A DNA stretch of 51,869 bases, from NCBI GenBank assembly GCA_903904005.1, contig CAIVAR010000112.1:1-51869 (forward strand), in the 5' to 3' direction. Within the stretch, counting starts at the first letter, position 1, and each line of letters opens with the position of its first letter. Below the pieces are notes generated by a model that made no database searches, was not told the origin of the DNA, and saw only the letters and a program-made list of their open reading frames with translations. Source of the DNA: an uncultured Anaeromyxobacter sp. (lineage in GTDB: Bacteria; Myxococcota; Myxococcia; Myxococcales; Anaeromyxobacteraceae). Positions 44,058 to 46,865 of the stretch are shown here, in pieces. The translations under genes were made by a program, and so were the position numbers.

Positions 44058-45437
44058 CTACCCTCCGTCGCGCTTCTTCTCGGCGAAGAAGGTGTGCTTG
44101 CGGAAGAAGACGAGGGACATGAGCCCGGTGGGCCCCTGGCGGTGCTTGGCCAGGATGAGCTCGATGTCCTGCACGTCGGAGTTGATGGCGTCCTGGCCAC
44201 CCTCGGCCTCCGGCTCGGGGCGGTGCAGGAACATCACCACGTCGGCGTCCTGCTCGATGGCGCCCGACTCGCGCAGGTCGGCGAGCATGGGGCGCTCCCC
44301 CTTGCGCTTCTCCACCGCGCGGTTGAGCTGCGAGAGGGCCACCACCGGGACTTGAAGCTCCTTGGCGAGCGCCTTGAGCGACCGGCTGATGGTGGCGATC
44401 TCCTGCTCGCGCGACTGGCTGGCCCGGTCGGACGGCGCGTGCATGAGCTGCAGGTAGTCGACCACCACGAGGTCGAGGCCGCTCTCGCGCTTGAGCTTCC
44501 GGCACTTGGAGCGGAGCTCGACCGGCGAGAGCATGAAGCTGTCGTCGAACCAGATGGGCGCGCCCATGAGCTTCTCGCCCTGGACCATGATGCGGTCCCA
44601 GTCGTGCTGGGCGAGCTTGCCCTTGGAGACCCGTTCGCTGTCGAGCTTGGCCTCGGAGGAGAGGAGGCGCAGCGCCAGCTGGTCGGAGGGCATCTCCAGC
44701 GAGAAGAAGACGACCTTCTTCTCCCCCTTGGTGGCCGCGTGGGCGGCGATGTTGAGGGCGAGCGCGGTCTTTCCCACCGACGGGCGCGCGGCCAGGATGC
44801 AGAGCGTGCCGGGCTGCAGCCCGAGGGTCTGGTCGTCGAGCCAGGGGAGCCCGGTGGGCACGCCGGTGACGTGGGAGAGCCCGGCCTTGGCCCGGGCGTG
44901 GATGGCCTCGAGCCGGTCGAGGGCGGCGCCCATCGCCTCGGCGAAGGGCTTCATGGTCTCGAGCGTGTTGCCCTGGGCCGCGCCGAAGACGTCCTGCTGC
45001 GCCTGCTCGAGGAAGTCGCGCACCCGCGGGCCGGCCTCGTAGCCCCGCTCCACCACCCGCTGGGCGGTGAGCATCATGCGGCGCAGCCGCGCCAGCTCGT
45101 TCACCGCCTCGGCGTAGTGGGTGGCGTTGGACGACGAGCCGACCGAGGCGGCGAGCCCGAAGACGAGCTCCCTCGGGACCTGCGCGCCGAGGAGCCCCTT
45201 CGCGTCGAGCCGCTGCTGCACCAGCACCGGGTCGATCTTGCGCGACTCCTTGGCCAGCTCCTCGAAGGCGGAGAAGACGTGCTGGTGGGCCAGCGCGTAG
45301 AAGTCCTCCGACTTGAGGATGGGCGCGACCTGATCGAAGGCGGTCTCGTCGAGGAGCACCGCTCCCAGGACCGCCTGCTCCGCCTCGAGGTTGTGTGGAA
45401 GATCGCGAACGCCGCGCAGTGCCAGTGGCTCGCCCAT
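44058..45437 (-). CDS. dnaB: Replicative DNA helicase DnaB
   Basis: 459-residue hexameric helicase that unwinds DNA at the replication fork. The N-terminal primase-interaction domain begins LPHNLEAEQAVLGAVLLDE. The RecA-like domain has Walker A ARPSVGKTALALN, KVVFFSLEMPSDQLALRLL, Walker B LDLVVVDYLQLM, and the DLRESGAIEQDADVVMFLHRPE and ELILAKHRQGPTG (Arg finger) motifs. No intein is present. Length is normal. A promoter and a set of DnaA-box-like repeats lie upstream. Confidence 0.96.
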   Translation of the reverse strand: MGEPLALRGVRDLPHNLEAEQAVLGAVLLDETAFDQVAPILKSEDFYALAHQHVFSAFEELAKESRKIDPVLVQQRLDAKGLLGAQVPRELVFGLAASVGSSSNATHYAEAVNELARLRRMMLTAQRVVERGYEAGPRVRDFLEQAQQDVFGAAQGNTLETMKPFAEAMGAALDRLEAIHARAKAGLSHVTGVPTGLPWLDDQTLGLQPGTLCILAARPSVGKTALALNIAAHAATKGEKKVVFFSLEMPSDQLALRLLSSEAKLDSERVSKGKLAQHDWDRIMVQGEKLMGAPIWFDDSFMLSPVELRSKCRKLKRESGLDLVVVDYLQLMHAPSDRASQSREQEIATISRSLKALAKELQVPVVALSQLNRAVEKRKGERPMLADLRESGAIEQDADVVMFLHRPEPEAEGGQDAINSDVQDIELILAKHRQGPTGLMSLVFFRKHTFFAEKKRDGG

Positions 45438-45448
45438 GAACGGCGCGG

Positions 45449-45477
45449 ATGCTAGCAGGCGGGTCCGACGGGGTCAC
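45449..45477 (-). promoter_or_regulatory. Promoter of dnaB
   Basis: On the minus strand GTGACC (45477-45472), a 17-base spacer and TAGCAT (45454-45449) form a -35/-10 pair ending 11 bases before the ATG at 45437. No Shine-Dalgarno lies between, so the message should be nearly leaderless. Confidence 0.5.
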
Positions 45478-45488
45478 CGTAGGGGACC

Positions 45489-45552
45489 GGTGGAAAAGGC
45501 CGAATTTCCTGGTGGAAAACCTGCGCTTCCGGTGTGGATGGAATGTGGGGAA
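45489..45552 (-). repeat. Helically phased DnaA-box-like repeats upstream of dnaB
   Basis: On the plus strand, GGTGGAAAA occurs at 45489-45497 and 45511-45519, TGTGGATGG at 45533-45541 and TGTGGGGAA at 45544-45552. Start positions are spaced 22, 22 and 11 bases, whole helical turns. Each matches the reverse DnaA box TGTGGATAA at 7 of 9 positions and all point the same way. They lie just upstream of the dnaB -35. Binding by DnaA is inferred. Confidence 0.5.
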
Positions 45553-45578
45553 GGGGAGGGCCCTCGGGGCGTACCCGG

Positions 45579-46865
45579 TCAGGGCAGGTAACTCGTCCCC
45601 ACCGCACGTTCCACCTGGAAGACGGCGGTCCAGAAGCTCTGGAGCGTGCCGAGGTACTCGACCTCGTTCCGGATCCGGGATCGCTGCGTGTCGAGGTAGT
45701 CGAGGAGGCTCGCCACCCCCTGCGCGTACTCCTCGCCCACCACGTCCCGGACGTCGCGGGAGAGCGCGAGCAGCTCCTGCTCGGCGCGGCGTGCCTGCCG
45801 CCTCGTCGCCTGGAAGGCGGCGAACGCGGTCCCGACGTCTGCGGCCACCTGTACCTCCACCTTCCGGAGGTTGGCCTCCGCGGTGGTCACCCCGGCGTCG
45901 GCGGCGCCGATCTGCCCCTGCTGCTGGTCGAGCAAGGGCAGCGGGAGGGAGAGGCCGAACGACGCGGTGGGCGGTGTGAACCACCCGCCGGGCGCCCCTT
46001 GCTGCGCGTACTGGGCCTGGAGCTGGAACTGCGGGAAGACCCGCCTGCGCGCCAGCTCGGCCGAGGCGCGCGCCGCCTCGACCTGCGCCCGGGCCGCAGC
46101 CAGATCGGGGCGCCGTTGCCGGGCCTCGGCGAGCAGCGCCGGGAGCGTCGCCACGCCGAGCGAGGGCGGTGGCTCGGCCGACTCCGTCGGGCCCGTCACC
46201 ACGGTGAAGGTGGGGGCAGCGTCGTCCATCCCGAGGAGCTGCGCGAGGAGCAGCCGCGCCTCCTCGTGCCCGAACTCCGTCTGGTCGATGGCCTGCTCGA
46301 CCTGGAGCAGGAGGAGGGAGAGACGGGAGAGGTCGTTCGCCGAGATCTCGCCCGCCGCCTGCCGCTTCCGTCCCAGGTCCACCGCGGCGCGGGCGCGAAC
46401 CGCCTCGCGCCGTCCGAAGCCCAGCCCGCGCCAGGCCACCGAGGTGGCCACGAACTGCCGCTTCACCTCGAACTCGAGGTTGCGCAGCGCGTCCAGCCGG
46501 CTCGCCTCGGCCGCCCGGATGCCCTGGGCGGCGGCGTCGCCGGCGAGCCCGCGCTGGCCGGTGACGAGGAAGGCCACCGCACCCTGGTCGCCGAGCGTCG
46601 CCACGTAGGTGGGGAGGTTGCACCCGGGGTCCCCGCACTGGGCCGACCACCCCGCCATGAAGGAGGCCGCCGGGTTGGGAAGCGCCGACGCGATGCGCGC
46701 CTGGGCGCGGGCCGCGGCCACGCCGGCGTCGGCGAGGGCCACGTCCGGGGAACGGTCGCGTGCGATGCGAACCGCGTCGGCGAAGGTGAGCGCGGCGGGG
46801 ACCTCCGGGGGGGGCGCCGGTACCGCCTCGCCGAGCGCGAGGGCCAGGAGCAGTGCCGGGATCAC
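45579..46865 (-). CDS. TolC-family outer membrane efflux protein
   Basis: 428 residues with a short signal peptide (IPALLLALALGEAVPAPP). Two OEP repeats are visible: ALTFADAVRIARDRSPDVALADAGVAAARAQARIASALPNPAASF, and PALLAEARQRRPDLAAARAQVEAARASAELARRRVFPQFQLQAQY. The long helical stretches are heptad-rich. It would form a trimeric outer-membrane channel. No membrane-fusion or inner-membrane pump gene is adjacent. It starts 4 bases after the metH stop, so it is co-transcribed with metH, an unexpected pairing. Confidence 0.88.
   Translation of the reverse strand: MIPALLLALALGEAVPAPPPEVPAALTFADAVRIARDRSPDVALADAGVAAARAQARIASALPNPAASFMAGWSAQCGDPGCNLPTYVATLGDQGAVAFLVTGQRGLAGDAAAQGIRAAEASRLDALRNLEFEVKRQFVATSVAWRGLGFGRREAVRARAAVDLGRKRQAAGEISANDLSRLSLLLLQVEQAIDQTEFGHEEARLLLAQLLGMDDAAPTFTVVTGPTESAEPPPSLGVATLPALLAEARQRRPDLAAARAQVEAARASAELARRRVFPQFQLQAQYAQQGAPGGWFTPPTASFGLSLPLPLLDQQQGQIGAADAGVTTAEANLRKVEVQVAADVGTAFAAFQATRRQARRAEQELLALSRDVRDVVGEEYAQGVASLLDYLDTQRSRIRNEVEYLGTLQSFWTAVFQVERAVGTSYLP

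Follow-up and report, generated by a model that had tools for sequence, protein, structure and literature searches.

A phased, conserved array of DnaA-box-like sites upstream of dnaB in the Anaeromyxobacteraceae

Results

Features of the dnaB upstream region

The window (the whole stretch of 51,869 nucleotides analysed, from an uncultured Anaeromyxobacter sp.) carries a dnaB gene, with a TolC-like gene as its upstream neighbour on the same strand and a gap of 141 bp between the two. One full-length dnaB orthologue is present in nearly every relative, and dnaB was detected in 38 of the 41 genomes searched. The features of the locus, in order of window coordinates, are as follows.

44058-45437, minus strand: dnaB, replicative DNA helicase, 459 amino acids (Pfam DnaB_C and DnaB N-terminal domain), the putatively controlled gene
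45449-45454, minus strand: predicted -10 element TAGCAT, preceded by TG (TGCTAGCAT); conserved as CTGCTA or CTGGTA in most family dnaB upstream regions
45472-45477, minus strand: -35-like element GTGACC (GTGATC in relatives), 17 bp from the -10 element, in a GGTGATCCCGTCGGA block conserved in the host's genus and part of Anaeromyxobacter
45478-45486, minus strand: degenerate grid position TCCCCTACG, abutting the -35-like element; a clear TATCCACGG or CATCCACGG box in several relatives (lattice table)
45489-45497, minus strand: DnaA-box-like site 1, TTTTCCACC (plus strand GGTGGAAAA), the most conserved box in the family
45500-45508, minus strand: degenerate grid position GAAATTCGG; TTTCCGAC in many relatives (lattice table)
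45511-45519, minus strand: DnaA-box-like site 2, TTTTCCACC (plus strand GGTGGAAAA)
45533-45541, minus strand: DnaA-box-like site 3, CCATCCACA (plus strand TGTGGATGG)
45544-45552, minus strand: DnaA-box-like site 4, TTCCCCACA (plus strand TGTGGGGAA), the weakest of the four
45579-46865, minus strand: TolC-like outer membrane efflux gene, upstream neighbour of dnaB

The four sites and their rarity

A preliminary description of this DNA had reported four 9-mers with a GTGG core, in one orientation upstream of dnaB and spaced 22, 22 and 11 bases apart, each agreeing with TGTGGATAA at seven of nine bases. All of this was confirmed, with starts at 45489, 45511, 45533 and 45544. Read on the dnaB coding strand the sites are TTCCCCACA, CCATCCACA, TTTTCCACC and TTTTCCACC, with a TCCAC core in three and CCCAC in one; position 9 of the boxes is often C rather than A. 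As 9-bp sites resembling TTATCCACA, none exceeds seven matches, and because the whole window lacks any site with one mismatch or fewer from TGTGGATAA, the four were regarded as weak boxes. Sites 3 and 4 are separated by 2 bp, the geometry of a double box, and a TCCAC box stands at the site 4 position in two relatives, G001 and G002 (lattice table).

The dnaB cluster is the sole phased set of at least three GTGG-core sites on either strand of the 51.9-kb window. Among 60 dinucleotide shuffles, searched on both strands, none contained three phased sites and none contained four in any phase. The pattern TCCAC-N17-TCCAC-N17-TCCAC matched once in the 4.56-Mb host genome, at the dnaB array, and three times in 24 family genomes (host included), always at dnaB and always in the host's genus, with no control matches; an off-phase control pattern with the second gap shifted (12-bp step) matched no dnaB locus. 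Every box is weak alone, as chance similarity in G+C-rich DNA would produce, but the shuffles, the uniqueness in the genome and the conservation described below exclude that explanation at the sequence level, and its probability is negligible.

Predicted promoter elements and the 11-bp grid

No promoter exceeded the threshold of a generic sigma-70 scan of the dnaB upstream region; the promoter was called from the conservation of the -10 and -35-like elements. Comparison with relatives made two extra degenerate positions of an 11-bp grid visible, at 45500 and 45478. Across the family, sites fall at about -25, -36, -58, -69, -80, -91 and -103 from the -10 region, and since degenerate boxes such as TTTCCGAC occupy the -47 place, the grid is nearly unbroken from the -35 element onwards. 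The boxes span about -35 to -110 from the inferred transcript start.

The inferred -35 and -10 elements put the predicted start some 5 bases ahead of the dnaB ATG, which may leave the mRNA with almost no leader. The same near-leaderless arrangement (about 5 bases ahead of the start codon; window 45437-45457) is implied in the host's genus and part of the family.

The position of the grid bears on the direction of any regulation. The array might bind DnaA and repress dnaB, or act dually, if high DnaA-ATP filled the grid as far as the -35 element and blocked RNA polymerase. The grid position at 45478-45486 abuts the -35 element and is a good box in several relatives, and E. coli nrdAB, for which activation at low and repression at high DnaA-ATP has been proposed, provides a precedent (PMC8203912). 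In the host genome, however, this position is degenerate and every strong box is upstream of the promoter. Repression or dual action was accordingly kept as a real but lesser possibility, and activation of dnaB by DnaA, favoured by the strong upstream boxes and the uncovered promoter, was considered moderately probable.

Conservation in the family

The comparison covered 21 family dnaB upstream regions from six genera, together with order-level outgroups; dnaB identity was 63-69% between genera and 91-99% within the host's genus. TCCAC sites lie upstream of the promoter region in 21 of 21 family regions, 85 on the coding strand against one reversed. Inter-site distances group around multiples of 11, values of 10 or 12 also occurring, and 16 of the 21 loci contain one or more pairs exactly 11 bp apart. 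With one genome per genus the mean cosine at period 11 was 0.65, a value reached by none of 20,000 random placements, and in a second set of six genomes it was 0.77, the family sequences being related and hence not independent samples. Of nine genomes of genus g4, seven have a three-fold 11-bp array at dnaB; such arrays occur at very few other locations in the family. Within the host's genus, 18 of 20 box-core columns are invariant, compared with 26 of 56 in the spacers and 1 of 15 further upstream.

The phased repeats are thus kept in orthologous dnaB upstream regions across six genera, at a fixed distance from the dnaB -10 element. Their same-orientation spacing (22, 22 and 11 here, and the grid family-wide) is of the cooperative type, with gaps of 2-3 bp or helical multiples. 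The array was absent from Myxococcaceae dnaB upstream regions, and those from other phyla showed nothing comparable apart from a hint at one locus (L038); it seems to be confined to the Anaeromyxobacteraceae.

The gene upstream of dnaB varies, being TolC-like in the host and G002, metH in G001 and others elsewhere, and the array is kept throughout. A second full-length dnaB paralogue in G005 (G005:C1:1875252-1876601; 64% identical) is without it. The array would therefore be a control element of dnaB and not part of the neighbouring gene.

DnaA and the presumed origin

The host genome encodes a full-length DnaA (L124, G000:C96) with an intact DNA-binding domain: domain IV aligns to E. coli domain IV (1J1V) and retains PRQ and the DHTTV base-contact motif, residues known to contact DNA. 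The usual DnaA domain IV loop is FGGRDHTTV. In all family DnaA proteins checked, the helix-turn-helix loop is FNKKDHTTV or a close variant (NKK for GGR).

In 15 family genomes the same TCCAC core occurs at 12.3 per kb in the dnaA-dnaN intergenic region and at 3.5 per kb in its flanks (3.6-fold). A near-invariant TTCTCCACA, TTTTCCACA, TTGTCCACA or TTATCCACA box adjoins dnaN, and reversed pairs and triples are spaced 11, 12, 22 or 23 bp apart, which mirrors the dnaB spacing. Box density, gene context and, in one relative (G011), a weak GC-skew minimum close to dnaA lead us to infer that this region is oriC. The presumed origin of the host genome carries the same boxes, and across the family a clearly different origin consensus, which would have counted against the preliminary description, was not found: the TTCTCCACA, TTTTCCACA or TTATCCACA boxes share the TCCAC core and the 11- and 22-23-bp spacings of dnaB, a comparison that is partly circular because the boxes of both regions were picked by that core. 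A matrix built from the oriC boxes of other genera only ranked the dnaB gap as the top-scoring cluster in the window.

The upstream array has the box density and phasing of an oriC and might itself be a replication origin, yet it has no evident A+T-rich unwinding stretch and dnaA-dnaN has its own box cluster; this is very improbable. The GC skew of G011 also weakly disfavours an origin at dnaB, as the weak cumulative minimum lies nearer dnaA and the skew is already rising at dnaB, at +95 kb.

Another DNA-binding protein might use the repeats, such as MraZ, an unknown activator or a plasmid-type iteron protein. Iterons often have a period near 22 bp, and MraZ sites have a GTGG-like core. The mraZ upstream regions of the same genomes, however, carry GTGGGAAAAAGTGGCAAA-type repeats with a 10-bp period, and the dnaB-type boxes and spacings recur at dnaA-dnaN, so that such a protein is an unlikely occupant. 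An MraZ operator as found at mraZ (GTGGGA or TGGGA repeats, 10-bp period) does not describe the 11-bp TCCAC grid at dnaB, and plasmid-type iterons were rejected, as the genes next to dnaB in the window include no apparent Rep gene.

Similar arrays elsewhere

Two double-box scans of the host genome gave 14 matches against 11 for the control and 10 against 3, many inside coding sequence. As these are not much above controls, no wider DnaA regulon is claimed.

In G011 a second full copy of the array and promoter, with a core identical to the dnaB pattern, lies at 3.08 Mb (G011:C1:3081881-3081990; L217 / L223), with a resolvase-like gene some 1 kb away. Behind the copy there is no long open reading frame, and the stretch terminates in a strong hairpin (fold z-score -2.6); the copy could serve as a DnaA decoy or as the promoter of a short RNA. 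Phage records searched with this second copy gave no match. In the same genome three phased TCCAC boxes stand just before an integrase-like gene, beside a possible tRNA end (L216, G011:C1:1224256). Two relatives also have three 11-bp-phased GTGGA boxes upstream of a gene encoding a small single-domain response regulator (L204, G022:C1:5571613; L205 and L212, G021:C19:4645 and C117:37401); this regulator has no close match in the host genome.

A copy away from dnaB with no long open reading frame directly behind it, like the presence of several boxes within about 80 bp, is what would be expected if the array served to titrate DnaA and its place beside dnaB were incidental. Titration would not need a grid fixed relative to the dnaB -10 element in six genera despite a changing neighbour, and it was judged improbable.

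Discussion

The intergenic region is likely a DnaA-responsive control region of dnaB, in which oriC-like cooperative sites end at the -35 element, and production of the helicase is probably tied to the replication initiator. The preliminary description had proposed a DnaA-box array controlling dnaB, and that reading was supported by both comparisons it had called for, with orthologous upstream regions and with the boxes at oriC.

We infer that DnaA binds the array in an ATP-dependent manner. Binding to several same-orientation TNNTCCAC-like boxes would be cooperative, and ATP-DnaA is the probable form, given that the boxes are weak and arrayed. On the 11-bp grid, in which each step is a 9-bp box and a 2-bp gap or a multiple of this, bound subunits would line up along a single helical face, as they do in the low-affinity arrays of oriC. 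The grid ends against the -35 element and leaves the promoter itself free, and DnaA at moderate levels might then contact RNA polymerase and activate dnaB, thereby coupling helicase supply to initiation capacity. More tentatively, the dnaB promoter of the Anaeromyxobacteraceae could be an oriC-like filament platform, at which the cooperative DnaA-ATP assembly responsible for opening oriC would also switch transcription of the helicase gene; dnaB expression would in that case be a direct readout of initiation competence.

The principle that DnaA controls dnaB is already known or supported in two other bacteria. In Caulobacter crescentus the DnaA regulon is reviewed as including dnaB, dnaQ, gcrA, ftsZ and podJ (Hottes et al. 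2005 as reviewed in PMC8203912), and the review describes DnaA-dependent expression of dnaB with predicted DnaA boxes. DnaA-type boxes lie upstream of dnaB in both organisms; the long same-orientation 11-bp grid is described here, from sequence evidence, for the Anaeromyxobacter locus. DnaA of Mycobacterium tuberculosis binds upstream of dnaB in an in vitro genomic pull-down (PMC7738170); the likeness is a DnaA site upstream of dnaB, here a predicted one, and the difference is that of another phylum.

The geometry of the array has its counterpart in E. coli. In vivo, DnaA of that species occupies chiefly box pairs with a gap of 2 or 3 bp, and lengthening a 3-bp gap by one base greatly reduces binding (PMC11317965); the geometry of these double boxes is repeated in the dnaB grid. 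Like the double boxes, the low-affinity arrays of E. coli oriC consist of same-orientation boxes with 2-bp gaps, and hence starts 11 bp apart, that need cooperation (Rozgaja et al. 2011 as cited in PMC4285127). Unlike the double boxes and the oriC arrays, the sites described here are situated at the dnaB promoter and comprise as many as six TCCAC cores plus additional degenerate grid positions. The promoter region of E. coli nrdAB, likewise a gene that supplies replication, also contains DnaA boxes (PMC8203912), but the gene is a different one and its three boxes are of mixed nucleotide specificity.

What is new is the family-wide phased array at dnaB. It points to a third, distant bacterial group, after Caulobacter and Mycobacterium, in which DnaA would control the gene for the replicative helicase. 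The array is compact, conserved and anchored to a promoter, and because that promoter lies outside the origin, cooperative assembly of DnaA on phased weak sites could be studied here by simple transcription assays.
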